Shown piece by piece: positions 24,246-54,441 of a stretch of DNA of 54,698 bases. Location: contig CAKZJX010000134.1 of the NCBI GenBank assembly GCA_937120535.1, forward strand, positions 1 through 54,698. Direction: 5' to 3'. Both the position numbers and the translations under genes were made by a program. Within the stretch, counting starts at the first letter, position 1; each line of letters opens with the position of its first letter. The notes beneath the pieces were generated by a model. The model had not been told where the DNA came from. It saw only the letters and a program-made list of their open reading frames with translations, and did no database searches. Source of the stretch: an uncultured Anaerolineae bacterium (GTDB taxonomy: Bacteria > Chloroflexota > Anaerolineae > Anaerolineales > Villigracilaceae).

Positions 24246-24251
24246 AGCATC

Positions 24252-37365: not shown

Positions 37366-37382
37366 ACTTCCTCCAAACTCCA

Positions 37383-39908
37383 TCATTCGTTTTGCTGCCC
37401 ATCGCTCCCTCGCCCCGGCAGGTGGGTTGCAACAGCATGGGGGATAATTTCCACGCGAGATACGTTTAATACGCGTTGCAACTCCTCAATGGCAATGCGA
37501 ATCATGGCTTGTGGATCGTTGGTGCTGCGGATCTTTGTCGTAATCTCGGCCACTGCCTGTTCGCGAGCAGCGCGGGTGTAGGTCTCCTCAAATAGGCGGG
37601 CATTTTCTAAGGCCAGACTAAGGCGTTCGGCCACGGCTTCAACGATAGCGATCTCGTCCTGTCTCCAGGAGCGGTCTGGGTGTGGGGAACGTACTTCCAG
37701 CACCCCAATCGCTTGATTCTGAAGCCGGATCGGGACAGCAATTATTGGGCCCAGCTCGCTCTCTTCCCAAATCACCGTTCGCCCGCTCTCCAACGCTGTG
37801 CGAATCTCTTGGCGGTCCAGCGTATCGAAGATGGGCGCGCCGCTGCCGCCGCTATACCAATAGCCGATTGGGGCATGAGCGGTTTTCTGTTCCCAGGCTC
37901 GCAGTGCCATCTCACCATACAGCGCTTGGGACTCGGCCAATGCTTGACGCACTTCGGATAACAGACGCGCATTCTCAATCGCAATGGCTACCTGATCGGC
38001 CAGGATACTCAAGATTTTAATGTCCTCTTGATTGAAAGCGCTCGGTTCTGTGCTCTGCACGTCGAGAACGCCGATGATCTCCTGACGCACTCGCAAGGGC
38101 AAAGCCATTTCTGAGCGCGTCTCGGGCAGGTCTGGGTTATCGAAGAAGACAGCATCCTCGCCTACATCCAGGGCAATGCGCCCTTGACCGCTTCCCGCAA
38201 CGTATCCTACAATGCCCACCTTGCCGATCGGCAACTTATGACCGCGAGCCAACATACGTTTTCCACCTGGGCTATTAGCCGCTCGTAAGACGGCATAGCC
38301 GCTCGCTCGGTCCAACAAAAACACACCCACGTGGTAGAACCCAAAGCGCTCGCTAATGACGTGGCTAACCAGCGACAGTAATTTTTCTAGTTCAGTTTCT
38401 GTGGAGATAGCACGCGCCACTTCGCTGATCACCTGCAATTGCTGAGCCCGTTTTTCACTCTGTTGCATGGTTCGTTCGAGATCGGCTGTGCGCTCGGCGA
38501 CGCGTTGCTCCAACGAGGTCACCAATTCGCGCACGCGTTGAGCCATCGTGTTGAAGGATTGGGCCAGGGTTTGGAATTCTTCGGTGATTTGTGGCGGCAC
38601 CTGCATGCTCAAATTGCCCCGGGCCAGTTGGTGAGAGAAGTCAGTGATTTGATCGAGAGGCGCAGTCAGCAGGTGAATCAAGCCACGCGTCACTAGCAAC
38701 GCTAGGAACAGGAAACCGAGCATTCCCAAACCGAGGTTAAGCAGCATGCGGCGTGTTTCTTCTTGTAGGCGCGCCTCGATGGTCAACAACTCGAACTGCG
38801 TTTCGGCGGCCGGCAAGACAATGCCGATGCTATAGCCCAGCGAAGGGATAGGCTGATACACCACGAGCTTTTCAACGCCATTTAATGTTATGACACGCAT
38901 CCCGCTCTGGAAGGTGGTCATCTTGATCAGAATTTCAAACAACTCGAGGGAAACTTTGTCGAGGATCGGTTCGAGCGCCGATCGCTCCTGGACCTCAGGC
39001 GGGGTGAGGCCAAAATCGGCATATCCCATCTCGGGCATGACGATCGGGCGTCCATCTCGATCGAGCAGGAAGGCGTATCCATTCTGCCCCAGGTGGATGC
39101 TTGAGATCAAGTCGGTGATGCGCGTCAGTTGTACATCAGCGCCGAGAACACCTCGGAATTGCCCTTTCGGGTCGAAAACAGGCACGCTGGCGGTGATCAC
39201 CCACCCGTGGCCGGCCGCGTCTAGATAGGGTGTAGACCAGACCACCTTTCGTTCAGGATTAAAGCTTGGATGTGCGCTCGCAAACCAGGGGCGATGGATG
39301 TGTCGAAAATCGGCCGGCAGCCGAGCTGCTAGGTCAATGTTGGGATAATACAGCATTGCTTCGGTGATGCTACCGAAGTAGATAGCGGTGATATCCGGCT
39401 GCTGGCGCAGGATCGACAGCGTCCAGGGATCCATTCTCTTTAGCGCGCCGATCTCGGCCAGTAAAGGCTCCGAAAGCGTCGGACGCGCCGGGATAAAAAT
39501 CGATCCGGGATCGGAGTCGGGATTATCCCAGCTCCCCTGAGGCAGTTGGGTGAGGACAACCGGGGCCGGCGATGCTTCTTGAGCAAATAATAGACGCATG
39601 GTTTCGCTTAAGGTAGCCATGCTGGTGCTGATCGATTGGAAGAACGCATCGGTTTCGAGCGCGTAGCGCAGAGCAATCGAGGTAAGTTCCTTTTCGGTTT
39701 CAGATTGAATACTGCGAGATAGGCGTTCGGTCAGAAAGGCATTAACGAGACTGGTGCGATAAAAGGTATAGAGTGCCGTGACGATCATAGCAAGCGTCAC
39801 CAAGCCGATCGCACTTACGCTTAAGCGTCGGCGGAAGGAGCGGAGCAGAAGCAGATGGCTCACGCGTTTCCAGAGAGAATCTTCACCCGGAGGAAAGTTC
39901 CCGATCAT
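37383..39908 (-). CDS. Cache-HAMP-GAF membrane receptor without output domain (receptor 6)
   Basis: An 841-residue membrane receptor. Span 1 is at about 29-48; the periplasmic region of roughly 340 residues contains a double-Cache-like fold (ITAIYFGSITEAMLYYP, then HRPWFASAHPS and a late GADVQLTRITDLI). Span 2 is at about 388-410, followed by a HAMP domain (LTAPLDQITDFSHQLARGNL) and a coiled coil. A full GAF domain (about 500-650) and a shortened GAF with a W...YWY preamble (about 665-780) follow. It ends in the common tail of this array (REQAVAEITTKIRS, then MIRIAIEELQRVL). There is no histidine-kinase, GGDEF, methyl-accepting or other output domain. It overlaps receptor 5 by four bases (ATGA). 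Confidence 0.88.
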   Translation of the reverse strand: MIGNFPPGEDSLWKRVSHLLLLRSFRRRLSVSAIGLVTLAMIVTALYTFYRTSLVNAFLTERLSRSIQSETEKELTSIALRYALETDAFFQSISTSMATLSETMRLLFAQEASPAPVVLTQLPQGSWDNPDSDPGSIFIPARPTLSEPLLAEIGALKRMDPWTLSILRQQPDITAIYFGSITEAMLYYPNIDLAARLPADFRHIHRPWFASAHPSFNPERKVVWSTPYLDAAGHGWVITASVPVFDPKGQFRGVLGADVQLTRITDLISSIHLGQNGYAFLLDRDGRPIVMPEMGYADFGLTPPEVQERSALEPILDKVSLELFEILIKMTTFQSGMRVITLNGVEKLVVYQPIPSLGYSIGIVLPAAETQFELLTIEARLQEETRRMLLNLGLGMLGFLFLALLVTRGLIHLLTAPLDQITDFSHQLARGNLSMQVPPQITEEFQTLAQSFNTMAQRVRELVTSLEQRVAERTADLERTMQQSEKRAQQLQVISEVARAISTETELEKLLSLVSHVISERFGFYHVGVFLLDRASGYAVLRAANSPGGKRMLARGHKLPIGKVGIVGYVAGSGQGRIALDVGEDAVFFDNPDLPETRSEMALPLRVRQEIIGVLDVQSTEPSAFNQEDIKILSILADQVAIAIENARLLSEVRQALAESQALYGEMALRAWEQKTAHAPIGYWYSGGSGAPIFDTLDRQEIRTALESGRTVIWEESELGPIIAVPIRLQNQAIGVLEVRSPHPDRSWRQDEIAIVEAVAERLSLALENARLFEETYTRAAREQAVAEITTKIRSTNDPQAMIRIAIEELQRVLNVSRVEIIPHAVATHLPGRGSDGQQNE

Positions 39909-41293
39909 GACTCCACCTCAAATGTCTTCTGGATCGGCTGCAACTGAATAAGGACTTCCGATCCGTTCAAGGCCTGGCTAAGTTCCTGAGCTGCGGTTTG
40001 CAAAATAGCGCGGATGCGAGTTTGTCCGCTGAGACGGGAGGTAATCTCGGCGATGATTCGCTCTCGCTCAGCGCGTCGCAAACTAGAGCGCATGAGGAGG
40101 GCGTTTTCAAGAGCAAGCGCCACGCGTTCAGCCACGACTTCTACAATGTCAATATCGTCGTCGGTCCATTTCCTCCGCGGAGCGCTGATCCGCAATAGGC
40201 CGATCGACTCGCCGTGTATCCGAAGCGGCACGTCCAGATAGGAGGTGCTGGCTTCTGTTCCAGGTTCGTAGGAACGAGGCAGGCCGCTTTCAAGTGCTTG
40301 TAGGGCAGCTGCATCGATGGGAAGGGGTTCTTGGAGAGGGACACTGATACCATTAATATAGCGATAACCAAACAAATGTTTTTCTCGCGAAGCATGCGCC
40401 CATGCCTGACGAATGCTGCTCTGTTCGACCTGAGCAAATTTTTCCGATAAGGTTCGCGCTTGTTCGAGCCGGCGCAAGTTCTCGATGGTTGGACCGAGCA
40501 AGTCGGCCAAGATAGCGTAGGGAAGGATGTCTTCGGGAGAGAAAGCCTGAAGCTCGGTGCTCTGAATGTCGAGAACGGCCAAGATGCGATCGCCTGTTTG
40601 GATCGGCAATAGGAGTTGAGCGTTAATCTCATCTGAAATCGGGAGGTGAAAGACCGCCGGGCCGAATTCCGGACGTCGAAAGGTGAATGGCATTCGGCTA
40701 AGCACTATTCGCTCCAAAAGAGCGTTTTCGCTGATCCGTTCTCGATAGGGCGACAGGAGTGCGCCTCGGTGTATGGCGTATCGTTCAGCGTACATTCCTG
40801 TTTCATCGAGAAGGTACATCGCTGTATACGGATGGCCAAACTGGTTGCACACTTCCTGCACGGTTAGGGTGAGCGCCTCGTTTACGGAGCGGGCGTTTTG
40901 TAGCGCTTCGGCCAACAGGGCGATCGAAATAAAACGATGGGTTTGATGTTCGTGCCGGGCCTGGAGCTGCTCTAAGGTGTGTTGGTGCTCCTCAATTTGC
41001 CGTTTTAGTTCGGCTTTGATGATTTCTATGTGCTGTAATGTTTGCTGAAGCTCTTGATTGGCCTGTTGTAGCGCTTGATCTCGAAGGCCAATCAGGTAAA
41101 ACGCCACACCTAGCACGAACGGTGCTGTGTCCACAATCCAGTGAACCGGATTTTGTTGCTGAACCGCCAGGGCCGAGGATACACCAAAGGGCAATCCTCT
41201 TAGCCAGATGTCCACTATTGTGGCCAGGAGCGGCGGAAATGAACCAAAGACCGCTCCTAAGAGAGTCCATCGTGCGACCAGGGGGTTCTTCAT
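39905..41293 (-). CDS. Two-span GAF receptor without output domain (receptor 5)
   Basis: A 462-residue protein, the smallest receptor of the array. Two membrane spans at about 10-33 and 50-68 bracket a short outer loop, so little ligand-binding surface is exposed. A long coiled coil (QALQQANQELQQTLQHIEII and onward) then leads to one GAF domain (about 135-270) and a shortened GAF with the AW...YRY preamble (about 290-400). The C-terminus is the shared tail (RERIIAEITSRL, then ILQTAAQELSQALNGSEVLI). No output domain is present. It follows receptor 4 by 14 bases and overlaps receptor 6 by four. Because it can sense almost nothing outside, its input may be intracellular or membrane-borne. Confidence 0.85.
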   Translation of the reverse strand: MKNPLVARWTLLGAVFGSFPPLLATIVDIWLRGLPFGVSSALAVQQQNPVHWIVDTAPFVLGVAFYLIGLRDQALQQANQELQQTLQHIEIIKAELKRQIEEHQHTLEQLQARHEHQTHRFISIALLAEALQNARSVNEALTLTVQEVCNQFGHPYTAMYLLDETGMYAERYAIHRGALLSPYRERISENALLERIVLSRMPFTFRRPEFGPAVFHLPISDEINAQLLLPIQTGDRILAVLDIQSTELQAFSPEDILPYAILADLLGPTIENLRRLEQARTLSEKFAQVEQSSIRQAWAHASREKHLFGYRYINGISVPLQEPLPIDAAALQALESGLPRSYEPGTEASTSYLDVPLRIHGESIGLLRISAPRRKWTDDDIDIVEVVAERVALALENALLMRSSLRRAERERIIAEITSRLSGQTRIRAILQTAAQELSQALNGSEVLIQLQPIQKTFEVES

Positions 41294-41307
41294 CGTATCA
41301 CCGTCCT

Positions 41308-44112
41308 TTAATGTGGCACATTATCTTCTTGCCCATGCAATTGCAAAGTGATTTCTGCGCTTCCCAGCGCGCGTCCCAATTCTTCCACAGCGATTTGCAT
41401 GATCTCGCTGATCTCAACGGTCTCGCTAATACGGGCAGAAATCTCGCGTATGGTGTGTTCTTTTACGGCTCGCCGCCGGGCTTCGTGGAACAAGCGGGCT
41501 GCGTCCAAGGCTAAACCGACTTGTTCGCAAATGGTGCTCAGGGCAGCGATCTCGTCCTCGGTCCAGGGGCCGCGCTCGGCCGGCTTATAGGTGCTCAGTA
41601 CCCCTAGAAGGGTGCCACGCACTTTGATCGGAATGTAAATTTGATGATCGCCGCTAACCGGTTGAGCTTCGTTCACGACAATCGGTTGACCGGTTTGCAG
41701 CGCCTGCCGGGCCGGCTTGGACAGGTTAGGCGAGATCGCACGTACTGTGTATCCATCGCTGCGAAACGCAAGAGTTTGACCGAGATAGCGAAAAGCGCTC
41801 TTCCATTCCAACTTGGTGCGTTCGGCATAAAGTCGCTGTAGGCTAGCTAGGGTCTCTTCACTCTGGGTGAATAGGCGGGCGTTGTCCAATGCGGTAGCGA
41901 TCTGATCGGCGAGAATTTGGAAGATGGCGAGATTATCAGGATTGAACGCATTTGGTTGAGCGCTTTGGATGCTCAGTGCACCCAAGACACGGTTGCGTGA
42001 ACGGAGTGGAAGCGCTGCCTCCGAGCGTGTCTCCGGCAACTCTGGCGTGCGCAGGCGAACTTCATCCAATTCCGCTTGTTGAGCGATACGCGCTTGAGCG
42101 TGCTGGATTGCCCATCCGATCATGCCGGTTCCAACACGGATACGGTGACCGCGCTCCAACATGCGACGACCCGCTTCGCCAGTGCCGGCCCGCAGATGGG
42201 CCCATTCGCCAGTCCCATCCAGTTCAAACAGACCGACATAATACAGGTTAAACCGTTCGCGAATGAGTTCGACCGCCTCCTGTTCCAAGATATTCGGGTC
42301 TAGGGTGGTGACCAGACGGCTACCGATTTCGGCAGTGGCTTGCAAATACGAAGAGCGTTCTTCTAAGTCGCGCGTTCGTTCGGCTACCCGCTGTTCAAGC
42401 GAAGTAATTAGGTCGCGCAATCGGTTTGCCATCGTTTGGAAGGCCTCAGCAAGCTGGCCGATCTCATCGCGGCGTCGAATGGGGATAACGATATCCAGGA
42501 TGCCTTGACGGAGCCGATCGGTTGCTTGCGTCAGTTGAAGGATAGGTGTGGTCAATGCTTGAATAAAGAAGTACGAGATGGCGCCGGTGACCAAGGCAAA
42601 CAAGACGAAGAGCAAAGAGGCTGTCTGTTGTTGACGTTGGATGGGGAGCAAAAACGTTGCACGAGATGTGGCGTAAATGACCTTCCACGGTTGGCTTTCG
42701 AGGGGAAAGATGGCTACTGCATAAAGTGTTTCCCCGGCTCCGGACAACTCGACTTCATGGATGCCTTGCCATGCTTGGGATTGTAGGACGTTTGCTAGAC
42801 GCGTTAGGTTGAGCGACGAAGTATCTTTGGGAAGGCGATGGGCCTCTTGCAGGGCGCTCAGAAGCGACGGTGAAATAGGAGCAGCGATTTTATATATTGC
42901 CGTGCTGTCAACGCCATGGGCTAGGAAAATAGAATGTTGATCTACAAGGATGGCGAACGAGTCAGCTCCGACCAAACCGCCGCTTTCTTTAATGAGAAAT
43001 TGTAAAATGGAAGCGCTATATTTGATGCGCAGTACACCGAGAATTTCTTGAGGTGCATCCGGCCGGCGTTGGCCGCGAATCGGCGCCGCAAAGTACAGGG
43101 CGTTCTCATCGGCATACACCGGGGTCACGACCGGCAGACCACTTCGCATGGCTTGTTGGAAATAATCCCGTTCGGCTTCAGAGCGGCCGACGTATTCTTG
43201 GCTCGAGTCGATTAGATTCCAACCATTGTTGTCCAAAATTCCGATGGAGAGGATATTCACCGAGTCACGCCGGCTCAAAGCCGAGAGCGTAATTTGGATA
43301 TTGTTCCATAGTTCTGCGTATTCTTGGCCGGCCGGCGGGGTGATCAAGAATTCGGCAATCTGCGGTAGCTGAGCGTAGGTGCGCACGTCCTCCAGGGAAG
43401 AAACGATCAATTCATCCACGTGGGAGGCGGTGAGTCGGGCGGCGGAGCGCAGCTGTTCGGCGGCGTTTTCACGCTGGGTGGTTTCAAGGGCACGCAGATT
43501 GGTAAATGAGAGGGCGCTCAAAGGCACCAGAGCGATGCTAAGGAAGGTGATCAGGATGCGAAGGCGCAGCTCAGTGGAACGGAGGCTCACAACCAGAACG
43601 TAAAGGATCACTATAGTTCCAAACAGCAGCGCAAAGAAATTCTGAAACGTCTCAGGCAGTCGAATACGGTAAGGGAGGGAAAACGCATCGAGGAGAATCA
43701 GTAGCAATGCGCTCAGAGCCACGCTGATCCAAGCCCAGCGCCGCTGGCTGAAAGATGGGAGAAGGAGTTGGGAGAGAATCAGGACGATCACTGAGATCGA
43801 GGTAGCAAACAGCCATCCAAACCCTTCGGTAAGCGTGCCGCCTATTATGAAGGCGATTTCTCCGCTCAACAGCGTCAACCAGGCTGCGCGCGTGAGTTGC
43901 CCATGTCGCCACCAATACGTAGAAAGCGAAAGGGCAAGGAGTAGAAGCACGGCGTTGGCCAGCATTGCCCAGTGCTGCCAGAGTGGCTGACGCCAGACCA
44001 GGAAGTGCAAGGCCGGAACGGCAGAGAACGAGCCAAGTAGGGCAATATACAGTGCAGACAAGCCAAACCGCTGCTGATCGTTAGAAGAGGGGTTGAAGGT
44101 GATCTTCGCCAT
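41308..44112 (-). CDS. Multi-span Cache-HAMP-GAF receptor without output domain (receptor 4)
   Basis: A 934-residue receptor with an unusual N-terminus: six predicted spans (about residues 17-180) before a seventh (about 187-207) that starts a Cache-type extracellular region of roughly 280 residues (contains GILDNNGWNLIDSS and LRIKYSASILQFLI). Another span (about 492-513) leads into HAMP (LTTPILQLTQATDRLRQG) and a coiled coil. Then come a GAF domain (about 590-730), a shortened GAF with a LEW...YLG preamble, and the common tail (KEHTIREISARISET, then MQIAVEELGRALGSAEIT). It lacks a kinase or other output. It is separated from the cyclase-family gene by 35 bases, the widest gap in the operon. 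Confidence 0.87.
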   Translation of the reverse strand: MAKITFNPSSNDQQRFGLSALYIALLGSFSAVPALHFLVWRQPLWQHWAMLANAVLLLLALSLSTYWWRHGQLTRAAWLTLLSGEIAFIIGGTLTEGFGWLFATSISVIVLILSQLLLPSFSQRRWAWISVALSALLLILLDAFSLPYRIRLPETFQNFFALLFGTIVILYVLVVSLRSTELRLRILITFLSIALVPLSALSFTNLRALETTQRENAAEQLRSAARLTASHVDELIVSSLEDVRTYAQLPQIAEFLITPPAGQEYAELWNNIQITLSALSRRDSVNILSIGILDNNGWNLIDSSQEYVGRSEAERDYFQQAMRSGLPVVTPVYADENALYFAAPIRGQRRPDAPQEILGVLRIKYSASILQFLIKESGGLVGADSFAILVDQHSIFLAHGVDSTAIYKIAAPISPSLLSALQEAHRLPKDTSSLNLTRLANVLQSQAWQGIHEVELSGAGETLYAVAIFPLESQPWKVIYATSRATFLLPIQRQQQTASLLFVLFALVTGAISYFFIQALTTPILQLTQATDRLRQGILDIVIPIRRRDEIGQLAEAFQTMANRLRDLITSLEQRVAERTRDLEERSSYLQATAEIGSRLVTTLDPNILEQEAVELIRERFNLYYVGLFELDGTGEWAHLRAGTGEAGRRMLERGHRIRVGTGMIGWAIQHAQARIAQQAELDEVRLRTPELPETRSEAALPLRSRNRVLGALSIQSAQPNAFNPDNLAIFQILADQIATALDNARLFTQSEETLASLQRLYAERTKLEWKSAFRYLGQTLAFRSDGYTVRAISPNLSKPARQALQTGQPIVVNEAQPVSGDHQIYIPIKVRGTLLGVLSTYKPAERGPWTEDEIAALSTICEQVGLALDAARLFHEARRRAVKEHTIREISARISETVEISEIMQIAVEELGRALGSAEITLQLHGQEDNVPH

Positions 44113-44147
44113 AGGGTCAAAAACTCGAACGTCGAGAAATCCTTAAT

Positions 44148-44939
44148 TCAAGGGAGGAAAGCCAGCACGGCGACAGGGCTACCCGAGCCGTTTTGCAGGC
44201 GTAAAACGCCTATCACCAAGGTTGCGCCGCTCGGAGGCAGTTGATCCAGCTGGGTCAGGCATTCGAGAGCGATGGCGTTGCGTTCGGCGATCAAGGTGTT
44301 CACTGCAAAAGAAGAGTCCCAGCCAGGTTCTAGGCCGTGGGTGTCGGTTCCTAGACCGGCAATCCCTCGCTGGTCCAACAGGAAACGAGCTGCTTCGGCA
44401 GAGAAACCAGGGAAATGGGGGCGGCCTGTTGAGTCTAGGTTGAGGAAGGCCTTTGGGTCGGACCAGCGATCTTGCCATCCCGTGAAGAGCAAGGCCAAGC
44501 TGTCTTGAGGGATTTGACCATGCTTTGCCTCCCAAGCCAAGATGTCGTCTACGGTGAGGGCATAATCGGGGTTCGCGCTGGCTTTGGGAAGAATGTCGAT
44601 CAAAACGGCTGGGGCTATCAAGGACTTAGGAGAGTAGGCATCTATGCTTTGGCCACCTTCCACAAAACTGCTAGAAGCATTCATGTGGGTGGCGCTGTGT
44701 TCGCCCATTCCAAAACGGCGTAAGAAGTACCCTGCTGTGGAGCGATCAGCGATCACTTGAAATTCGATCGGCGGATCGCCAGGCCACCGAGGGATGGCCT
44801 CATGGATGATGTGACTTAGGTTCACCAGGCGCGAGAAGGCAATCGCTCGCCGGCGTTGCCTTCCGGCTAGGAGGCTGCCAGCGAGCATGGCAAACCAGGA
44901 AATCACAGCGAGTTGAACCAGCGCGCGCAAACGGACCAT
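44148..44939 (-). CDS. Membrane-anchored cyclase-family (kynurenine formamidase-like) protein
   Basis: A 263-residue metal-dependent hydrolase of the cyclase family. The N-terminus has a hydrophobic anchor (about 8-27) with a following cluster of arginines, so the protein is likely held in the membrane, which is unusual for this family. The family's metal motif HxGTHxDxP is present as HSATHMNAS, with Asn in place of Asp and Ser in place of Pro; related variants exist in a subgroup, so activity cannot be excluded. The second metal region (GLGTDTHGLEPGWDSSF) looks intact, and the C-terminus has LVIGVLRLQNGSGSPV. A role in cleaving a small amide or ring compound that one of the receptors detects is possible. 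It begins ten bases after the corrected stop of the solute-binding gene. Confidence 0.78.
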   Translation of the reverse strand: MVRLRALVQLAVISWFAMLAGSLLAGRQRRRAIAFSRLVNLSHIIHEAIPRWPGDPPIEFQVIADRSTAGYFLRRFGMGEHSATHMNASSSFVEGGQSIDAYSPKSLIAPAVLIDILPKASANPDYALTVDDILAWEAKHGQIPQDSLALLFTGWQDRWSDPKAFLNLDSTGRPHFPGFSAEAARFLLDQRGIAGLGTDTHGLEPGWDSSFAVNTLIAERNAIALECLTQLDQLPPSGATLVIGVLRLQNGSGSPVAVLAFLP

Positions 44940-44949
44940 GCTTTGGACC

Positions 44950-45931
44950 CTAACGATGTTCGCTCAACCAGAAAATGAACGATGGATCGAGAATTTGATT
45001 GGCATCTGGACGGATGGCAAGATTGCCGGTTGATCAGGAATTCGATGTAAAGATTGGTCGTGTAATAAATTGACGTCGTATCGCTGCCTGGATTTTGAGA
45101 AAAGGCGGCGAGGTTGTCTTCAAGGGTGTACAGTTGAACGCCTTCAAAGGAGATCTCTTCCGGCTTCATGCCGCTCAGTTTGGCAATGCTGGCAATGGCG
45201 CGGTCGGGGTATTGCTGGGTAAATTCCACCGCTTCTAGCCAAGCGCGCAGGAAAGCGCGCACGTCCTCTGGTCGTTCACGCAGTACCTGTGTGCGCATGA
45301 CCAGCAGATCGGGGATTAGCCCTGGGGTATCGGCGCTGGAGAAGATAACTTGATGACCTTGAGCTAGCGCTCGGGAAGTGAAGGGTTCCCAGGTATGGCC
45401 GGCGTCAATCTGATCGGGGATGGCCTGCGGGACGTTTTCCGGATTGATGTTGATCAAAGTGACATCGGCGGGACGCAGGCCGGCCCTCTCTAGCATTTTA
45501 TACACAAATAGCTCGCCAAACGTACCCAGGTTCACGCCAATCCGTTTGCCCTTCAGATCGCGAAGGCTCTTGATCTCGGAGCGAGCGACAACTTGATCGG
45601 CACCGCTAGAGATATCGGTGATGAAAACAGCGCGCAGGTTATCGTTTTTGACAATCGGCACAAAGTCTCCCACGACAAAGAAGCCGGCGTCCATCTTTTC
45701 GGCTGCAAGGTCGGGCATGGCCTCTTCAAAGATCTCGTAGAGATGAGGCTCGACTCGAACACCGTGTTTCTCAAAGAAACCTTGATCCTGAGCGACAAGC
45801 AAGATCCAATCGCCCGGCCAATATATCCATTCCACGCGCAGCGGAGGACGTTCAACTGGACGCCCAGGAGCGCAAGCCGCGAGCACGACCCCGAGCAGCA
45901 CCAAGATCAACAGGCGACAACGATCTAGCAT
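44950..45931 (-). CDS. NMT1-type lipoprotein solute-binding protein with a 3' frameshift
   Basis: A lipoprotein (signal peptide ending in the lipobox LAAC, Cys at residue 20) of the NMT1/SsuA/TauA-like family that normally captures small organic molecules for an ABC importer. Family features include VAQDQGFFEKHGVRVEPH, DAGFFVVGD and KGKRIGVNLGTFGELF. The uninterrupted frame runs past FLINR into an odd Cys/Ser-rich tail that overlaps the next gene. One extra base near 45025 fixes this: after it, another frame reads NLAIRPDANQILDPSFIFWL and stops at 44950-44952, exactly as relatives end. So the gene either carries a real frameshift or the assembly does. No permease or ATPase gene is near, so the protein may feed a receptor instead of a transporter. 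It follows receptor 3 by nine bases. Confidence 0.85.
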
Positions 45932-45940
45932 AACTCCTCC

Positions 45941-47779
45941 TTACGCCTCTTCAGATGGCGGAGATGTGAGGTGAATGGTCACCTCAGAAAGGCGGAAAGC
46001 GCGTTGCACTTCAGCCGCAGCGGTGCGTAGAATCAGCTCCATATCCAGCGCTTGGTGAATGCGGGCAGAGACTTCGCTGATAGCTCTTTCTCGTTCCGCG
46101 CGGCGTTGGGACTCCTCAAACAAACGAGCGTTTTCTAGAGCCAAGCCGAGTTGCACGACGATCTTCTGGAGAGTGGCTTTTTCACGAGGCTCCCATTCCT
46201 TTTCTTGGCGCATGACGGCGATCTTGCCGATTGTCTGGTTATGAAGCACGATCGGTAGTTCGAGTTGGTGCTTGCCTGGATGGGAGGGAATCTCTCCGGG
46301 AGGCAAAAGTTGCACGCCCAGTGGGGTGTAGTGATAGGCGTAATGCTTAGCTTGGGCCGGAGCGTTCCAGGCCCGTTGGACACGCTTAGCCGCCACCCCT
46401 TCCAACTCACGCAACAGGCGATTCATTTCTTCAAAGAGGCGGGCGTTCTCGATGGCCAGAGCAATCTGATCGGCAAGACCTTGCAGGATTTCGATATCTT
46501 CTGCTGTGAACGCTTGGGGTTGCATGGATTGGATGTCAAGCACGCCGATGATCCGATCGTGCACCATGAGCGGAAGAGCAGCTTCAGATCGGGTTTGAGG
46601 GAGATCAGGGTTGTTGAATACAGCATCTGCCCCTGTATCTAGTGCGATGCGAGGCCGTTTCTGGGCGGCTACATATCCCACAATCCCCTGTTCACCGACT
46701 TTAAAGCGGTGACCTCGATTGAGCATGCGCTGTCCTCCAATCGAAGAAGCAGCCTGGAGGACGGCGTACTCATTGGCTTCATCCAGCAGGAAAATTCCAG
46801 CATGGTAAAAGCCAAATTGTTCAGAAATCAACCGCACTGCGTCGTTCAGCAGTTGAGCAACATCACGAATATCAGCTGCCTGGCGCGCTACTTGGATAGT
46901 TGCCTGGAGTTGAGCCATGCGGCGAGAGACTTCGCGGGTTCGTTCCTCCACCTGTTCTTCTAGGCGAGCTATCAGGTTTCCCAGTTCCTCAAGAGCCAAG
47001 TTGAGCGCCTGCCCCAGGAGGTTGAACTCATCGTTGGTTTGGATGAGCACTCGATGAGAGAAATCTCGTTCCGAAAGCCGCTGTGCACCCTGGGTCAGTG
47101 TGGTTAGAGGCGCCGTAAGAAGGGTGCTAATCAGATGGCTAGTCACAGCAACGATGGGAATGGAGGCAAGGAAAACCACCACGCTCAGACGAAAGGCACT
47201 CTGTTCTTGTGCCAGCACGTGGTGCGCAGCAATATCAATGCCGAGCACCGCCTCGCGCCGTCCATCGGACGTGTAGATAGGTGCATAACCGGTCAACCAG
47301 GTTCCCCAGCGGTCGGTGTAGAGATCGTCTTCTACCTGCGCGGTTTGTAGCGTGGCAAAATGAGCCTTTAGCCAATCGCTGGCATCATAATACACATCGC
47401 CCACATGCGAAACATCCTGTTCGCTCTCCTCGGCATCTACGACAAAAACAATGTTTCCTTGCTCGTCCTGACGCATGGTGTATACGAACCGGAAATCGCT
47501 CCCTGCATCACGAATGGCTTGTAGGGTTTTTTTGAGTTGTAGGTATTCCGGTGAACCTTCTTGCTCACGCGAGATCAGCCGAGCATGCAGATCCCCGTCG
47601 ACCTGCAAGGCGGCAATAGCAACCGCATCGCGCAGGCGATTGCTAATATCCTGACGCAGGATGGTTTTGGTGTTCTGATAGTGCCAATATGAAATCACGC
47701 CAATGGTTGTCAGGCTCAGGGTCATCAAGTAGAGCGTCAACTTTAAGCGTAGCGATAAAAAGCGAGCAGGTCGTTTCAT
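45941..47779 (-). CDS. Cache-HAMP-GAF membrane receptor without output domain (receptor 3)
   Basis: A 612-residue receptor. Span 1 is at about 15-33; the periplasmic part of roughly 165 residues is a single Cache-like sensor (contains FRFVYTMRQDEQGNIVFVVD and GYAPIYTSDGRREAVLGIDI). Span 2 is at about 197-217, followed by HAMP (LTAPLTTLTQGAQRLSERDF) and a coiled coil. A GAF domain (about 300-450) contains FGFYHAGIFLLD; a shortened GAF with the RAW...HYAYHY preamble follows. The end is the shared tail (RERAISEVSARIHQ, then ILRTAAAEVQRAFRLSEVTI). There is no output domain. It overlaps receptor 2 by four bases and is followed nine bases later by the solute-binding gene, its most likely periplasmic partner. 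Confidence 0.88.
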   Translation of the reverse strand: MKRPARFLSLRLKLTLYLMTLSLTTIGVISYWHYQNTKTILRQDISNRLRDAVAIAALQVDGDLHARLISREQEGSPEYLQLKKTLQAIRDAGSDFRFVYTMRQDEQGNIVFVVDAEESEQDVSHVGDVYYDASDWLKAHFATLQTAQVEDDLYTDRWGTWLTGYAPIYTSDGRREAVLGIDIAAHHVLAQEQSAFRLSVVVFLASIPIVAVTSHLISTLLTAPLTTLTQGAQRLSERDFSHRVLIQTNDEFNLLGQALNLALEELGNLIARLEEQVEERTREVSRRMAQLQATIQVARQAADIRDVAQLLNDAVRLISEQFGFYHAGIFLLDEANEYAVLQAASSIGGQRMLNRGHRFKVGEQGIVGYVAAQKRPRIALDTGADAVFNNPDLPQTRSEAALPLMVHDRIIGVLDIQSMQPQAFTAEDIEILQGLADQIALAIENARLFEEMNRLLRELEGVAAKRVQRAWNAPAQAKHYAYHYTPLGVQLLPPGEIPSHPGKHQLELPIVLHNQTIGKIAVMRQEKEWEPREKATLQKIVVQLGLALENARLFEESQRRAERERAISEVSARIHQALDMELILRTAAAEVQRAFRLSEVTIHLTSPPSEEA

Positions 47780-49707
47780 GGCTGGTTTCTCTCCTCTACT
47801 CCCAGGGCGATGATGGCCTCTGAGGCGTTTAGCGCGCGACCGATCTCGCGAGCAGCGGTTTGCAAGATGCCTTCTATTGAGCCAGCCGACCAGATGCGTG
47901 CCGTGATCTCAGAAACGATGCGATCCATGCCGGCCTCTTTTCGGCTCTCCTCCATCAGACGAGCATTTTCTAGAGCCAGCGCTACCTGAGTAGCTAACGA
48001 TTCCATCCAAGCGCGTTCTTCCTCAGTCCATTTCTGATCCCCGTCCACGCGAATAGAGCCGATTTGCTGGTTGCGCAACGTCAGCGGAATCTGCACCGTG
48101 GTCTCCCCATCTGTTCCCACCTCTTCTCCAACGCCATATTCGATACTAGAAGCAGAGGTGAGCTCAGACCAAGCGTCACGCACATATTGGCTCTGGAGGC
48201 GCTGCAGTTCTTGTAAGCGTTGTCGTAGTTCCTGGAAGAGCTGAGCGTTTTCCACGGCTATGGCAACTTGGTTGGCCATACTCTGCATAATCTCAATGTC
48301 TTCCTGTTGGAAAGCCGCTTCGCGTGTCGACTGGACATCGAGCGCTCCTAACACGCGGTCGCCGACCATCAGCGGTAGAGCAATTTCCGAGCGGGTGTAG
48401 GGAAGCAAAGGATTGCTGAAACGCGCCGGTTCCAAACCGACATCCAGAGCAATGCGGGCTCGTTTCTGACGGATGGCTGTGCCAACCATGCTTTTGCTGT
48501 CCACAGCCAGACGATGGCGCGACTCGCGCAAGATGCGGCCGGCCTCGCCGGTAGCGTGTTTGAGCTCGGCCCATTTGCCTGTCGAGTCGAGCAGGAAGAT
48601 GGCGGCATAGTAATGACCAAATCGATCGGTGATCAGGTTGACCACTTTTCCCATCAACTCGTCTGGATCAAGAATAGCGCTGATTGCGTGCCCAACTTCG
48701 ATGACGGCTGCCAATTGCGCCGTGCGATCCGCCACCTGCTTTTCCAACGAGGCTTGTAAGGTTTCCAAGCGGTCGACCATCCGGTTGAAATAAACCTCGA
48801 GTTCTCCACCTTCATCAGAAGAGAAGACGTTTGCGCGTAGATGAAGTTGCCCCTGCTCGACTCGTTGAAAGAGGTTCAACAGCTGAGTAAACGGAGCATT
48901 AAGGAGATAAGCGCTGAGAGTGGTGAATGTGGCTGCTATGACCAGGCTCAAAAAGGCAATACCCAGCGATTGGACTTGGTACGTGCGCAGGGCTTGGATG
49001 GGATCCATCCCTTCCACCACTCGCACGATCATCCGATAGCCAACAGGTGCTAGAGTTGCCAGGCCGGCGCTGACCAACGTTAGAATCAGCAATTGCAACT
49101 TCCAGAAGAGAGACACCGAGCGGATGTGAGCTGCCTGAGTCTCGAAAGAGGTCGGCAGCAACACTTGACGTACCGGCTGCATGATCCAATCCAGCAAGAT
49201 CATGGCCATGAGAACAATAATCGGAGCTGCTACTGCTCCACCGAGCAAGGTGTAAATGATCTGATCGGCGGTCAGACGCAGCGCCAGGGCTTGATAGCCG
49301 AGAAGAGGGACGATAACAACGAATATCGCTCCGGTCAATCCGATTACGCCATATCGCCGGGGAAGATTAGCGATCTCGCGCCAGGCCTGCTCCTGGTTTG
49401 TGGTGTATATCGCTAGGCTCTGTCCTCTTCGCCAGAGCTCCAAGCGGTGGAACGCATGACGACTCAACCATAGGGTCAATCCCACCACCAGTAGATTGTT
49501 GAGCGAAGTAAACACCAGAAGAAAACGCACGCTGGCGCCTAGATCGGTGGGCGAGAGCTCAGCATTGTTTTGCACCAGGATGATGGCTGGCGCAATGAAC
49601 GAATTGGTGAGCAACTGGGTGATCAAGATGCCCAGTGGCAGATAATACCCCCCGCTGCGTTGGAGCAGAGTCTCGAGAAATGAGAAAAGCCTGGAAGTGA
49701 TCGCCAT
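47776..49707 (-). CDS. Six-span HAMP-GAF membrane receptor without output domain (receptor 2)
   Basis: A 643-residue receptor with about six membrane spans (near 20-42, 62-82, 120-142, 150-175, 198-222 and 245-268) and no large periplasmic loop, so the sensor is probably the membrane bundle itself. I do not recognise the bundle family. A HAMP-like region (APFTQLLNLFQRVEQGQLHL) and a coiled coil follow, then a GAF domain (about 335-485) with FGHYYAAIFLLD and a shortened GAF with the DAW...IEY preamble. It ends in the shared tail (MDRIVSEITARIWS, then ILQTAAREIGRALNASEAII). No output domain is present. It lies 11 bases after receptor 1 and overlaps receptor 3 by four bases. Confidence 0.86.
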   Translation of the reverse strand: MAITSRLFSFLETLLQRSGGYYLPLGILITQLLTNSFIAPAIILVQNNAELSPTDLGASVRFLLVFTSLNNLLVVGLTLWLSRHAFHRLELWRRGQSLAIYTTNQEQAWREIANLPRRYGVIGLTGAIFVVIVPLLGYQALALRLTADQIIYTLLGGAVAAPIIVLMAMILLDWIMQPVRQVLLPTSFETQAAHIRSVSLFWKLQLLILTLVSAGLATLAPVGYRMIVRVVEGMDPIQALRTYQVQSLGIAFLSLVIAATFTTLSAYLLNAPFTQLLNLFQRVEQGQLHLRANVFSSDEGGELEVYFNRMVDRLETLQASLEKQVADRTAQLAAVIEVGHAISAILDPDELMGKVVNLITDRFGHYYAAIFLLDSTGKWAELKHATGEAGRILRESRHRLAVDSKSMVGTAIRQKRARIALDVGLEPARFSNPLLPYTRSEIALPLMVGDRVLGALDVQSTREAAFQQEDIEIMQSMANQVAIAVENAQLFQELRQRLQELQRLQSQYVRDAWSELTSASSIEYGVGEEVGTDGETTVQIPLTLRNQQIGSIRVDGDQKWTEEERAWMESLATQVALALENARLMEESRKEAGMDRIVSEITARIWSAGSIEGILQTAAREIGRALNASEAIIALGVEERNQP

Positions 49708-49718
49708 GCTAGTTAACC

Positions 49719-52700
49719 TTAAAATAGGTGGTCTTCCGAAGGTAGTTCGGTTTGGGGAACCTCGATCTTGATATGAACCCTTCGCGCATCTAGTGAGCGG
49801 GTCAGTTCGCTGGCTGTGGTCGCTAGGATGGTCTGGATGTCGCCGGCGCGACGGATTCTGGCGGTGACCTCGTAGAGCAAGTGCTCACGTTCGGCCTGTT
49901 GACGGATCTGAGCTAGCAGGCGAGCATTGGCAATGATGGCGGCCAGGCTGCCGGCCAGGGTTCCCAAAAGTTCCTCATCGCTTTCGGTATAGGCTGCCGC
50001 CTGTTCGCTTTCTACGTTGAGCACTCCGAGCAGTTCGTTTCTGTAGATCAAGGGGATGGCGAGCTCAGATCGGGTGTTTTCGCTAACTTGGATGTAGCGC
50101 GGGTCTTTTGAGACGTCGTCCACGCGCAACGGACGACGATGCTCAGCAGCCCAACCGGTAATGCCGGCCCCGATCGGGATGCGCAGGTTATACATCTCAT
50201 CAGAGTAACCCGCCATAGCGCGCACCTCAAGATGTTTGCGCTCACGGTCGAGCAGCAAGATCATAACCCGATCCCCACCCAAAGTCACCTGTAGGCCTTT
50301 CACTGCTGCATCCAGGGCGTCTTCCAAGGTGGAGCCTGACGCCGCCGAAGTGGTAATGTGATGCAGCAGGCGATGCTCGGCCAAATGCTCTTGCGTCTCG
50401 GCGAACAGCTCGGTGTTGATTACAGCGACTGCCAGTTGGTCAGCCAAGATCTCCAGGGTGCGTACACTGTCTTCGTCAAAAGCAAAGGGTTGAGTGCTTT
50501 GCACGTCCAAGGCGCCCAAGATGCGTTCTCCCACTTTGAGCGGGATAGCCATCTCGGCGCGCGTCTCCGGCAAGAGCGGGTTAGGGTAATATGTGGCATC
50601 CTTGAGAGTGTCATTTACGACCAACGTCTCTCCCCGACCCGTCACATAGCCGACGATCGATTTGGATCCCACGCGAAGCTTATGCCCCCTGCGCTTCAAT
50701 TGCGCCCCGGCCTCGCCAGTGGCTTCACGGATCACAGCGAATTCGCCGTGCATATCCAGCAAGAATACTGCAGCATGGTAGAAATTGAACCGCTCACGAA
50801 TCAGGTTCACGGCGCGCAACAGCAATTCGTCCAAATTCAGTGAGCCGCTGATGTCGCGCGCAATCTCGGCAGCGGTTTGCAGTTGGATGGCCGAACGACG
50901 GCTCTGTTCAAGGAGGCGCAGGCTCTGAATGGCGCCGGCCATCTGCTTGCCTAGCTCATTCAAAAAGTTTAGATCGCGTTCACTGAAGCGGCCTTCCTGT
51001 TCCAGGTCTTGGACGATCAAAGCGCCGATGGGTTGGTCATTGACCAACAGTGGAACACCCATCCACGATTTCGCAGGTTTGCCGTGAATTTTGGCGCCTA
51101 ACTGAATGGCTCGACGTTCCGTATCCTTGACTAGCAACAGAGGCTGGCGGGTGCGAATCAGGATGGAAGTCAGGCCTTCTCCCAGCGGGAAGGGTTCGAG
51201 CGTTTGGGTCTTCCCTTCCTCGTAGAGGTAGGGGACGCTGATTGAGTTTGTTCTCTCATCGAACAAGGCAACGAGAAAGCTATAGTCGCCGATCACTTGC
51301 TTGACTTGCTGTTGCAGAGCAGCACAGAACGCTTGAAGATCCAAGTTGCCGTATACGGCGCGGTTGAACGAGATCAGCGCTTCTAACTCCTTCAGGCGTT
51401 CTTGCCTGTCCTGTAGGGCGCGAATGCGAGATAGGGTGGTGCCTAACAGGGTAGTGATGCTCAAATATGGCCAGGCAGTGCGGCCGGTGAGCGGTTGTCC
51501 AGCTCGTTCCCCGATCATCAAGATAGCGACTGGTTTTCCGCTCACTAGTACCGGTAAGAAAGCTCCGCTACGGCAACCGATTTGGCGTAAGGGAGCTGCC
51601 AGCTCGCCGGGGAGTGTCTCAGCACGGCTGAGATCATTGACCAGAATAGGTGTGCGAAGCAGGCGGGTGATCGATTCGAGATCGACTCTCGAATTGGCCG
51701 GCCAGGTGGTCAAGGTTTGTGGTGGGTTGTGGATTGCTACAATCTCAGCTTGATCCTGGCGCAAATCAAGCAAGATCGATGGATGACCAGATTCGCCCAT
51801 GACGTTGCCGGCAGCGCGTATGGCCTCTCCCTCGGTTTCCGCCTGAACAATTTCAGGGATTCGTTGCTGCAATCGTTCGGCTTCTGTGGCGTCCAACCGC
51901 CCTTGTCCGCTTAGGCTGGTTTGTTGAATGGTCACGGCGATCTGATTGGCCAGGGTTTGCAAGACGATCACCATTTCCTCATCGAAGACATGGGGTTCGG
52001 TGCTCTGCACATCTAACACGCCCAGCACGACCTGACCAACAGCGATTGGGAAACCTGCTTCAGCCCGTGTCTCCGGTAAAAGAGGGTTTATGCGGTGCAC
52101 TGGGTCCTTGTCTACTTCGGCGGCCACGCGTGGTTTTACGTTTGCTGCCACCCAGCCGACGATCGAGTCGGAACCAACTTCCAATTGGTGACCGCGACGG
52201 AGCATCTCGGCGGCTGAAGGCCCCTGGGCAGCCCGCAGGATGGCATATTTGCCGCTGGGGTCAATCAGGAAAATGCCGGCGTGATAAAAGTTGAACCGCT
52301 TAACGATCAACGTTACAGTCTTGTTGAGCAATTCGTCCAGGTCGAAGAAGGTGGTCAATGCTTGAGCCACCTCGGCGGCGGTGCGGATCTGACGTGTGCG
52401 TTCGGCCACTTGCTCTTGAAGCGAGCGATACATGGCGCTCAGTTGATCGGCCATGCGGTTGAACGACGTGGCTAGCAATCCGATCTCATCGTCGCGTTGT
52501 ACGCCAGCCCGCTCCTGCCAGTTGCCTTGGGCAAATTGGCCGGTGATGGTTGCCAACGTCAAGATCGGCTCGATCATGCGGTTGGTTCCGGCCGTGATGA
52601 TCAAGATCATGACCAGGGTGGAGAGCGCCAGGAGCAGGACGGTAAAGGGAATCAGGGTGTTGAGATAGCCGAAGATCGAATCGGTCGGCACTTCGAGGAC

Positions 52701-53609
52701 CAGGGCACTGTGAAGGTCTTCTAGCCAGATGGTCTGTGCCAGCACCGGAACGCCTTGCTCGTTGGCGTAGCTGAGCGTCTGAGGGCGGCTGGGTGGGCCG
52801 GCTGTGCGCACGCTCTGGATGGCGGTGAGCAGGGAGTTGCGTTGTTGTTGGGTAGGAGTAAGGGGAATGATTTGACCAGTATACGGGTCTATGGTCAAGA
52901 AGCCGCCGTGATCCGAAATTACGTAAGCGCGCGAGGAGGGGATCAGATCAGCGAGAGAGTTTAGCCTCACCGCAATGTCGGTCTCGTCCGAAATGCCACC
53001 CAATAGGGCGATCGGGACACCGCTGTCGTCGAAGAACTGAACCATGGTGACCAAGCTCAGTTGCTCCGGATAAAAGGGGCGAAAATCGTAGATAGAAAAG
53101 GTTTGGAGATCGCTCAGAAACAGCAGTTCAAAGAAGGGCGAATTCGCTAGAGATATGCCCTCCCACTTTTTTTGGCTGGCTGCCAAGATGTTCCCCTCTC
53201 GATCGGCGATGAAGAGCGCTTGGAAAATAGGTTGATCCTGTTCGCGGTTGGCTTGGTGGAATAGAGCGATCAAGCGGTCACGCGCCGCGACAAAATCGGG
53301 TTGGTTTGGAGTGTTTTGCAGCAATGTTGATAATGTAGCAGCAAAGTCTGGCTGGCGCATCAACCGGTCCAGGCGAATTTGTTTAATTGTAGCCACATCT
53401 TGTGCAGCCTCCGCCTCTATCGTGATCAGATTTTCCATTTGGGCAAGCACTTGGCTACGCAGCGTATCTCGGGCGCGCAGATACGTACCGCTGGTCACGA
53501 GCATGAGGGGCAGAAAGGTCAGCGAGGCTAGGGTGAGGATCGCTCGACGCGCCAGTTTGCCTTGGGGCAGGAGATCACGCAGTCGGAGGAGAAACGAACG
53601 GAGAACCAT
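49719..53609 (-). CDS. Large Cache-HAMP-penta-GAF membrane receptor without output domain (receptor 1)
   Basis: A 1296-residue receptor. Span 1 is at about 20-42; a Cache-type outer region of roughly 280 residues follows (contains ALFIADREGNILAAS and AYVISDHGGFLTIDP). Span 2 is at about 318-342 and leads into HAMP (MIEPILTLATITGQFAQGNW) and a coiled coil. Then come five GAF-type domains (about 420-575, 590-730, 745-895, 910-1065 and 1075-1225); three of them carry the FNFYHAGIFLID or FNFYHAAVFLLD signature or a variant. The end is the shared tail (REHLLYEVTARIRR, then ILATTASELTRSLDARRVHI). No kinase or other output domain is present. The ATG at 53609 has GAAAGG before it; a start at 53633 is possible but overlaps the preceding gene and lacks a ribosome site. 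Confidence 0.88.
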   Translation of the reverse strand: MVLRSFLLRLRDLLPQGKLARRAILTLASLTFLPLMLVTSGTYLRARDTLRSQVLAQMENLITIEAEAAQDVATIKQIRLDRLMRQPDFAATLSTLLQNTPNQPDFVAARDRLIALFHQANREQDQPIFQALFIADREGNILAASQKKWEGISLANSPFFELLFLSDLQTFSIYDFRPFYPEQLSLVTMVQFFDDSGVPIALLGGISDETDIAVRLNSLADLIPSSRAYVISDHGGFLTIDPYTGQIIPLTPTQQQRNSLLTAIQSVRTAGPPSRPQTLSYANEQGVPVLAQTIWLEDLHSALVLEVPTDSIFGYLNTLIPFTVLLLALSTLVMILIITAGTNRMIEPILTLATITGQFAQGNWQERAGVQRDDEIGLLATSFNRMADQLSAMYRSLQEQVAERTRQIRTAAEVAQALTTFFDLDELLNKTVTLIVKRFNFYHAGIFLIDPSGKYAILRAAQGPSAAEMLRRGHQLEVGSDSIVGWVAANVKPRVAAEVDKDPVHRINPLLPETRAEAGFPIAVGQVVLGVLDVQSTEPHVFDEEMVIVLQTLANQIAVTIQQTSLSGQGRLDATEAERLQQRIPEIVQAETEGEAIRAAGNVMGESGHPSILLDLRQDQAEIVAIHNPPQTLTTWPANSRVDLESITRLLRTPILVNDLSRAETLPGELAAPLRQIGCRSGAFLPVLVSGKPVAILMIGERAGQPLTGRTAWPYLSITTLLGTTLSRIRALQDRQERLKELEALISFNRAVYGNLDLQAFCAALQQQVKQVIGDYSFLVALFDERTNSISVPYLYEEGKTQTLEPFPLGEGLTSILIRTRQPLLLVKDTERRAIQLGAKIHGKPAKSWMGVPLLVNDQPIGALIVQDLEQEGRFSERDLNFLNELGKQMAGAIQSLRLLEQSRRSAIQLQTAAEIARDISGSLNLDELLLRAVNLIRERFNFYHAAVFLLDMHGEFAVIREATGEAGAQLKRRGHKLRVGSKSIVGYVTGRGETLVVNDTLKDATYYPNPLLPETRAEMAIPLKVGERILGALDVQSTQPFAFDEDSVRTLEILADQLAVAVINTELFAETQEHLAEHRLLHHITTSAASGSTLEDALDAAVKGLQVTLGGDRVMILLLDRERKHLEVRAMAGYSDEMYNLRIPIGAGITGWAAEHRRPLRVDDVSKDPRYIQVSENTRSELAIPLIYRNELLGVLNVESEQAAAYTESDEELLGTLAGSLAAIIANARLLAQIRQQAEREHLLYEVTARIRRAGDIQTILATTASELTRSLDARRVHIKIEVPQTELPSEDHLF

Positions 53610-53617
53610 GGCGCCTT

Positions 53618-54064: not shown

Positions 54065-54441
54065 GATTGCCTCGCCAGGAACCGTTCAAGTTGCTGAGCC
54101 AATAGGTCGATGTCGATCGGCTTTTGAATATAGCCGTCGCATCCTGCTTCGAGCGATTTCTCCCGGTCGCCGCGCATCACGTTGGCGGTGACGGCAATGA
54201 TGGGGGTGCTGGAATAGTCAGGGAGGGATTTGATCGTGCCCGTAAGCGAATAGCCATCTACGCCGGGCATACTGATGTCCATTAGGATAATATCGGGCCG
54301 TTTTTCCTGGAGTTTCTTCAAAGCCTCTTCGGCATTGGCAGCTTCGACCACTTCATACCCTTCGGCTTCCAGCACGCGGCGAACCAGAGTGCGATTTTCA
54401 CGGTTATCTTCAACATATAGAACGATACGCTTCTCGGACAT
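54061..54441 (-). CDS. Stand-alone receiver protein (first gene of the array)
   Basis: A 126-residue single receiver domain: VLYVEDNRENRTLV holds the acid pair, IILMDISMPGVDG the acceptor Asp, VTANVMRGD the switch Thr, and IQKPIDIDLL the conserved Lys. It has no output domain. The ATG at 54441 follows GGAGTGTGCCCT; a GTG nine bases upstream is possible. As the first gene of the roughly 25-kb run of minus-strand genes, it and its neighbour are positioned to be made before any receptor. A T/A-rich segment with TATAGA and TATAGC lies just upstream (about 54457-54472) and may hold the promoter, but I see no clear -35 box. Confidence 0.9.
   Translation of the reverse strand: MSEKRIVLYVEDNRENRTLVRRVLEAEGYEVVEAANAEEALKKLQEKRPDIILMDISMPGVDGYSLTGTIKSLPDYSSTPIIAVTANVMRGDREKSLEAGCDGYIQKPIDIDLLAQQLERFLARQS

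Follow-up and report, generated by a model that had tools for sequence, protein, structure and literature searches.

Within a stretch of 54,698 nucleotides (the window; contig CAKZJX010000134.1 of assembly GCA_937120535.1, from an uncultured Anaerolineae bacterium of the Villigracilaceae), we found a minus-strand operon in which six membrane receptors (R1 to R6) are encoded together with a ParA-type ATPase and a soluble hybrid histidine kinase. Domains were called by Pfam at E<=0.05, and membrane spans were counted with a simple hydropathy script. The gene order is REC1, REC2, R1, R2, R3, a substrate-binding protein, a cyclase-like protein, R4, R5, R6, ParA, the hybrid kinase, a fusion of a threonine-synthase-like enzyme with a receiver, and an EamA exporter, all joined by short or overlapping junctions. 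Only 248 bases of the contig precede REC1, so that the operon may extend beyond the contig end. The genes are as follows.

54061 to 54450, minus strand: REC1, a lone receiver with a GTG start (Pfam Response_reg; acceptor aspartate present in the translation)
53618 to 54064, minus strand: REC2, a lone receiver (Pfam Response_reg)
49719 to 53633, minus strand: R1, a receptor with two spans, HAMP, several GAFs and a terminal half-GAF tail (Pfam, hydropathy)
47776 to 49707, minus strand: R2, a receptor with about six spans, HAMP, GAF, a short GAF without its middle, and a half-GAF tail (Pfam, hydropathy, AlphaFold)
45941 to 47779, minus strand: R3, a receptor with HAMP, GAF, short GAF and half-GAF tail (Pfam, GAF profile)
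44903 to 45931, minus strand: NMT1/SsuA-like substrate-binding protein, between R3 and R4
44148 to 44939, minus strand: putative cyclase or arylformamidase-like protein, between R3 and R4
41308 to 44112, minus strand: R4, a receptor with six to seven spans, dCache_1, HAMP, GAF, short GAF and half-GAF tail (Pfam, hydropathy)
39905 to 41293, minus strand: R5, a receptor with two spans, GAF, short GAF and half-GAF tail (Pfam, hydropathy)
37383 to 39908, minus strand: R6, a receptor with dCache_1, HAMP, GAF, short GAF and half-GAF tail (Pfam, GAF profile)
36580 to 37386, minus strand: ParA-type ATPase with a KGGVAKT Walker A motif, between R6 and the kinase
31836 to 36611, minus strand: soluble hybrid histidine kinase with basic peptide, linker, half-GAF, five GAFs, PAS, HisKA, HATPase and two receivers
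30150 to 31814, minus strand: threonine-synthase-like pyridoxal phosphate enzyme fused to a receiver, the presumed output
29189 to 30136, minus strand: EamA-family exporter, the end of the conserved block

An earlier note, made from the letters of this stretch, had described six membrane receptors with no output domain, and the open reading frames (ORFs) and Pfam bear this out, with HAMP and/or GAF domains in all six. Kinase domains that might have been missed in R1 to R6 were looked for, and no HisKA, HATPase, receiver or other output domain was found in them; R5 gave no Pfam match to HAMP at the above threshold. The soluble hybrid kinase, the two lone receivers and the enzyme-receiver fusion which that note placed nearby were all recovered by Pfam. 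The receptors are not strictly consecutive, as it had stated, but split three and three by the substrate-binding and cyclase-like genes between R3 and R4. Their sensory parts do differ, as indicated by dCache_1 in R4 and R6 and by differing span counts, although the "single Cache" was not confirmed by Pfam. The earlier note held none of the four features on which the present analysis centers, namely a half-GAF tail shared by the receptors, a matching half-GAF at the start of the kinase, a basic N-terminal peptide on the kinase and the ParA ATPase.

By employing a GAF profile built from the 13 full GAFs in the window (162 positions), we found that the last approximately 48 residues of each of the six receptors match only the first third of the domain, after which the proteins stop. 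The positions of these tails are:

49761 to 49904, minus strand: half-GAF tail of R1 (profile match)
47803 to 47943, minus strand: half-GAF tail of R2 (profile match, AlphaFold)
45965 to 46108, minus strand: half-GAF tail of R3 (profile match)
41335 to 41478, minus strand: half-GAF tail of R4 (profile match)
39938 to 40078, minus strand: half-GAF tail of R5 (profile match)
37437 to 37580, minus strand: half-GAF tail of R6 (profile match)

In R2 to R6, the module preceding the tail matches only about the last third of the same profile (the short GAF). A dedicated tail profile of 257 sequences aligns to columns 1-50 of 166 in GAF (profile-profile E 2.3e-8). In the window's own genome it has six matches better than E 1e-20, all at the operon, and two weak ones elsewhere (E 0.001 and 0.009). 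The tail is situated within 40 residues of the C-terminus in 252 out of 254 and in 297 out of 297 complete tail proteins, in two sets that overlap. Neither a receiver match nor a kinase core was found in 633 collected proteins with a C-terminal tail, a count from overlapping sets that covers C-terminal tails only, the filter having left out tail-like stretches inside complete GAFs. In the AlphaFold model of the R2 end (mean pLDDT, the predicted local distance difference test score, 90.3), a full GAF is followed by a 52-residue helix, two strands, a 46-residue helix, a 15-residue helix and a low-confidence terminus, with no strand formed where the first GAF strand is expected. Foldseek returned GAF folds for both this receptor end and the kinase start, and nothing beyond. 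A first receptor of about 1300 residues, like R1, recurs in many relatives, and the first receptor of a cluster usually has the tail without a short GAF.

The kinase, which with its HisKA, HATPase and two receivers is a hybrid histidine kinase by Pfam, begins with the opposite part of the domain:

36552 to 36611, minus strand: conserved basic N-terminal peptide of the kinase, a candidate ParA-binding site
36216 to 36392, minus strand: N-terminal half-GAF of the kinase, comprising the last strands and last helix

The match of the kinase start to the last part of the window GAF profile is weak, while a profile of 28 kinase starts aligns to GAF columns 114-166 of 166 (profile-profile E 8.3e-13). 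The AlphaFold model (pLDDT 85.3) has a low-confidence linker, three strands, a 46-residue helix, a 16-residue helix and the rest of a full GAF. Across the family, the start consists of the peptide M-P/S-K-K-x-K-I-x-K-R-L-D-K-L-F, a linker of low conservation, the half-GAF and then full GAFs, with mean conservation of 0.74 in the peptide, 0.32 in the linker, 0.69 in the half-GAF, 0.42 in the next GAF and 0.47 in the last quarter of that GAF. Outside the family, a PAS-like stretch often precedes the kinase half-GAF, as judged by inspection. The strict peptide motif was present in 67 of the 72 genes that follow ParA, and the remaining five were near matches. A wider motif was found in 85 out of 123 half-GAF kinases and in eight out of 29 other GAF proteins, mostly pieces of half-GAF kinases. 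It also occurred in three of 651 tail proteins, two of these being membrane helices and one a protein with a kinase-like start in G031, and in none of the other protein classes, including 81 other GAF kinases. The G031 protein (locus L081, contig C69, 85785-89033) is soluble, combines the peptide and half-GAF of a kinase start with a terminal receptor tail, and directly precedes the kinase gene; it is a possible adapter.

As a generic GAF profile proved too insensitive for half-domains (46 out of 102 operon kinases, 6 out of 69 other kinases and 104 out of 651 receptors), it was replaced by specific half-domain profiles. These were built from part of the same loci, and the counts obtained with them consequently show how widely the forms recur rather than discovering them. 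In two near sets, 62 out of 63 and 29 out of 31 operon kinases carry the N-terminal half-GAF. The two that do not in the latter set are those of G031, in which the half-GAF is on a protein of its own, and of G049, in which it is part of a longer GAF match. Among other GAF kinases it was found in 7 out of 28, 1 out of 21 and 0 out of 22 in three sets. The seven comprise five operon kinases whose enzyme neighbor was missed in the table (L112, L122, L166, L173 and L191), the broken piece L156 and the unexplained L180. In L148 (10761-14068) the kinase lies in two ORFs with the break inside a GAF, due either to a frameshift or to a true split.

The ATPase between R6 and the kinase belongs to the ParA family with a deviant Walker A motif, as indicated by AAA_31 (E 8.4e-46), ParA/Soj chains (to E 5.2e-46) and the sequence KGGVAKT. 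Partners of ParA/MinD ATPases, including those in chemotaxis clusters, are said in the available part of PMC10241942 to act via positively charged disordered N-termini. The kinase N-terminus, with its basic peptide and low-confidence linker, is probably disordered and may stimulate the ATPase. A separate ParA-ParB pair is encoded elsewhere in the genome, and that ParB has MPQRSGLGKGLDALIP near its start, similar in kind to the kinase peptide. The enzyme of the presumed output is related to threonine synthases in the PDB (E to 2.5e-41), its best score being below the curated NCBIfam threonine synthase cut-off (248.9 versus 303 bits), and three other homologues exist in the genome. Its receiver, together with the EamA neighbor, suggests that the output is control of amino-acid metabolism or export.

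The same receptor-kinase arrangement was sought in other genomes, as the earlier note had advised, and it recurs in relatives, so that chance does not explain it. In a set of 61 genomes, the window's own and 60 relatives, tails were called at E<=1e-4, and all counts are among the matches listed. Tails occurred in 49 of these genomes, mostly clustered, with up to 18 per genome. Most of the 40 tail loci compared, that of the window included, keep the order receivers, receptors, ParA, kinase, enzyme-receiver and exporter. ParA directly follows the last receptor in 31 out of the 38 loci with more than 1.2 kb downstream, and in 30 out of 40 a catalytic kinase core is encoded on the same strand no more than 9 kb away. 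Among the other ten, the kinase is found further down in G024, eight loci run into a contig end or the limit of the sequence examined, and G007 truly departs from the pattern. The outcome that the earlier note had named as counting against its idea, namely such receptors being common without a neighboring kinase, was thus mostly not seen.

A search anchored on ParA in named genomes (best 80 of 391 relatives) gave titles that, as far as recognised, belong to Anaerolineales or other Chloroflexota, except for one Blastopirellula label. The contigs titled Blastopirellula marina (L166) and Herpetosiphon (L140) carry an Anaerolineales-type locus, and these labels are probably wrong. Tail receptors were present at 77 out of the 80 loci, the others being L122, with almost no upstream sequence, and the true exceptions L179 and L182. 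At 75 loci there was a kinase, or a piece of one, with the N-terminal half-GAF; those lacking it are L145 (contig end), L156 (broken frames), L160, L179 and L182. Long antisense ORFs led the ORF caller to hide some genes, for example the L160 kinase and the ParA of G020 and G033. The counts from the L and G sets should not be added, since the sets share genomes (e.g. L113 and G006, whose contigs have the same length). In L179 and L182 (about 10001-10800) a ParA of the operon type occurs without receptors. The genes after ParA in L179 are presumably a TrmFO and an M28 peptidase, families that the window encodes as well (21856-24103). L210 (G004), L211 (G233), L212 (G036) and L213 (G168) are additional clusters of smaller size that contain tail receptors and a PALP-receiver fusion, with no ParA in the sequence examined; three of these have a further PALP gene, and the kinases of G233 and G168 start with a variant of the basic peptide.

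More distantly, tail matches at E<=1e-5 were found in 81 out of 199 genomes of a class sample (49 with two or more and 32 with a single one, several of the single weak ones being parts of complete GAFs) and in 25 out of 201 genomes of a phylum sample, 17 of the 25 being of the same class, both among the matches listed. Within the 61 genomes, tails and the PALP-receiver enzyme (E<=1e-100) occurred together in 49, the tail alone in none, the enzyme alone in two and neither in ten (Fisher 7e-10). Tails and the kinase start (BLAST E<=1e-6) occurred together in 39, the tail alone in ten, the kinase alone in none and neither in 12 (Fisher 4e-7), both p-values ignoring shared ancestry. Three of the ten tail genomes without a BLAST kinase start (G041, G048 and G059) have the N-terminal half-GAF by profile.

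Intact counterparts of the divided domain were found in other kinases. Among the 275 kinases collected, six have a tail-like first half inside a complete GAF that precedes the kinase core. All six come from relatives at class or phylum level, in loci chosen for a tail match, and these first halves score 30-75 bits, the median of true tails being 64.7. In all but G070, and thus in five of the six, the last part of the same GAF is the protein's best match to the kinase-start profile. These GAFs resemble an undivided version of the domain whose two parts belong here to receptor and kinase, which favors end-to-end docking of the two pieces, side-by-side docking being possible too. In L234 (G143) and L235 (G116), the first half of the GAF scores like a true tail and its last part resembles an operon kinase start. 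The large operon kinase of the more distant genomes G066, G079, G135 and G261 is itself anchored in the membrane and combines GAF, short GAF, further GAFs and HisKA. Together with the five out of seven class and phylum operon kinases that do not start with a half-GAF, this makes the receptors look like receptor kinases cut short.

The genes and domains, the shared tails, the half-GAF kinase start, synteny, co-occurrence and the intact GAF versions in other kinases form a real, conserved system, and the best description of it is a set of GAF receptors without kinases of their own that share one kinase. From these we infer contact in trans, control of the kinase, binding by ParA and the output. 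Different membrane receptors, six in this operon, would respond to different inputs and relay the signal through their HAMP and GAF stalks. Each stalk breaks off within a GAF, behind its second helix and first strand. The soluble kinase begins with the last GAF strands and last helix, from which a stalk of GAFs leads to HisKA/HATPase. The two broken ends would then come together, most likely by end-to-end docking into one divided GAF, or alternatively side by side via a shared GAF-to-GAF helix, so that any receptor could bias the same kinase. Phosphoryl groups would pass to the kinase's own receivers and to those of the operon, including the one fused to the threonine-synthase-like enzyme beside the EamA exporter, and the ParA-type ATPase would bind the basic peptide at the kinase N-terminus and thereby position or partition the complexes. 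We regard it as probable that a single kinase responds in trans to several inputs through these half-GAF ends, perhaps with ParA positioning the complexes. The earlier proposal of many inputs feeding one kinase in trans is thereby partly supported, being the best reading and one whose genomic predictions hold.

Several observations weigh against this reading. A half-GAF already stands before the tail in five of the six receptors, and the tail with this preceding half-GAF resembles GAF-GAF junctions in general. G007 has four receptors with no kinase core within 21 kb, and its enzyme-receiver is on another contig. In the class and phylum set, only two out of seven operon kinases begin with a half-GAF, and the tails are therefore wider than that kinase form. 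When a receptor-end profile was applied to the kinases, the N-terminal junction was the best one in 66 out of 94 operon kinases, but the lowest of four in the kinase of the window. An analysis of tail-kinase coevolution, probably underpowered with its 92 distinct kinase starts, gave top inter-protein couplings no higher than with shuffled kinases. A genome-specific tail signature was likewise rejected, as tails are no more alike within than between genomes. Within receptors, 2 out of 2876 couplings between tail and short GAF exceeded Z 4, versus 0 out of 8036 between full GAF and tail. Pairing of tail and short GAF inside one molecule was nevertheless rejected, since this slight enrichment does not reproduce the GAF contact pattern (unsmoothed r -0.01; comparison exceeded by 20 out of 624 shifts when smoothed and by 493 out of 624 when unsmoothed).

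The receptors might instead act on one another, the tails pairing with the short GAFs of neighbors to form clusters, with the adjacent kinase as one client among several or under separate control. This would account for the half-GAF that five of the six receptors, and 561 out of the 633 collected tail proteins, carry themselves, for the slightly enriched couplings just described and for tails that exist where the operon kinase starts differently. We nonetheless consider it unlikely, given that the couplings differ from the GAF contact pattern, that the kinase start never occurs without tails in the 61 genomes, that the first receptor of a cluster usually has a tail and no short GAF, and that the tail-like first halves of intact GAFs sit in kinases. 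Another explanation is that the receptors are decoys or blockers which have lost their output and are kept as ligand traps, or as dimerisation partners silencing full-length GAF kinases. They do resemble receptor kinases cut short, and several distant operon kinases share their GAF and short-GAF plan; unlike decaying genes, however, they keep the C-terminal tail in nearly all complete copies, reach high copy numbers (up to 18 among the matches listed) and retain their order with ParA and the kinase in most loci, which makes this account very improbable.

A further alternative concerns only the ParA step, in that ParA could serve an unrelated function and the kinase peptide have another role. 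G104, G135 and G178, with ParA at the other end of the cluster and large kinases without the peptide, are in keeping with this, as are the receptor-less ParA genes of L179 and L182 and the variant peptides of the side-cluster kinases in G168 and G233, with no ParA in the sequence examined. Set against these are the position of ParA directly after the receptors in 31 of the 38 loci, the near confinement of the peptide to half-GAF kinases and pieces of them, and the presence of a separate ParA-ParB pair in the genome, so that we find an unrelated ParA rather unlikely. For the preferred reading of shared control through divided GAFs, a fuller version can be put forward, tentatively and as rather less than an even prospect: a receptor array that evolved separately from chemotaxis, with up to 18 kinase-less receptors of different sensory types on one kinase, in which a divided GAF provides the coupling, ParA positions the complexes by reading the kinase peptide and one output acts directly on an amino-acid enzyme.

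The earlier note had likened the logic of the operon to chemoreceptors with CheA. This holds for the logic, as chemosensory arrays (MCP, methyl-accepting chemotaxis protein; CheW; CheA; positioning by ParC/ParP or PpfA) share many receptors, one kinase, receivers and a ParA-type ATPase with it, according to the available parts of PMC5706961 and PMC10241942. It does not extend to the parts: no MCPsignal domain was found in R1 to R6 or in the whole genome (in a control, 7 out of 14 genomes were positive), no search having been aimed at CheW or adaptation enzymes. The operon kinase is HisKA-type, hybrid and GAF-bearing, with no HPt or CheW-like domain listed by Pfam (E<=0.05), and a half GAF takes the role of coupling piece. 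By gene content and gene order, the operon is compatible with several receptors being served by a single kinase. The RetS/LadS/PA1611-GacS multikinase network of Pseudomonas also has sensors acting in trans on another kinase, but these are histidine kinases themselves, as far as the available text of PMC4866733 goes, whereas R1 to R6 are without HisKA or HATPase. ParA/MinD cargo positioning, in the portion of PMC10241942 available, shares a ParA-type ATPase with a neighbor that has a basic, probably disordered N-terminus, the neighbor here being a histidine kinase and a putative partner only. Among GAF/PAS hybrid histidine kinases, to which it belongs, the operon kinase differs by its start in the middle of a GAF and by its kinase-less receptor neighbors. 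The earlier statement that no named system of this design is known agrees with our search of the open-access literature, where no description was found; most subscription journals and bioRxiv lay outside that search.

As for the remaining genes, the substrate-binding protein is a possible ligand supplier to a receptor, and similar genes occur in 34 out of 143 tail loci (overlapping sets). The cyclase-like gene is without counterpart in the loci of relatives among the matches listed, being 1 of 1 in all collected sets. A converging block at 24228-29180, with two GAF kinases and a receiver/winged-helix regulator, adjoins the operon here and in many loci of relatives. Over positions 1-54698, the guanine-cytosine skew is 0.08-0.23 up to 30 kb and 0.02-0.11 beyond.

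If the reading of several receptors acting on one kinase is true, bacteria have at least two separately evolved ways of wiring many receptors to one kinase, and the system would be common in a large, little-cultured group, as indicated by the 81 out of 199 class genomes with a tail match among the matches listed. Half-domain ends would provide a simple and testable coupling part, and the ParA neighbor raises the question of whether recruiting a positioning ATPase is a general tendency of receptor arrays.

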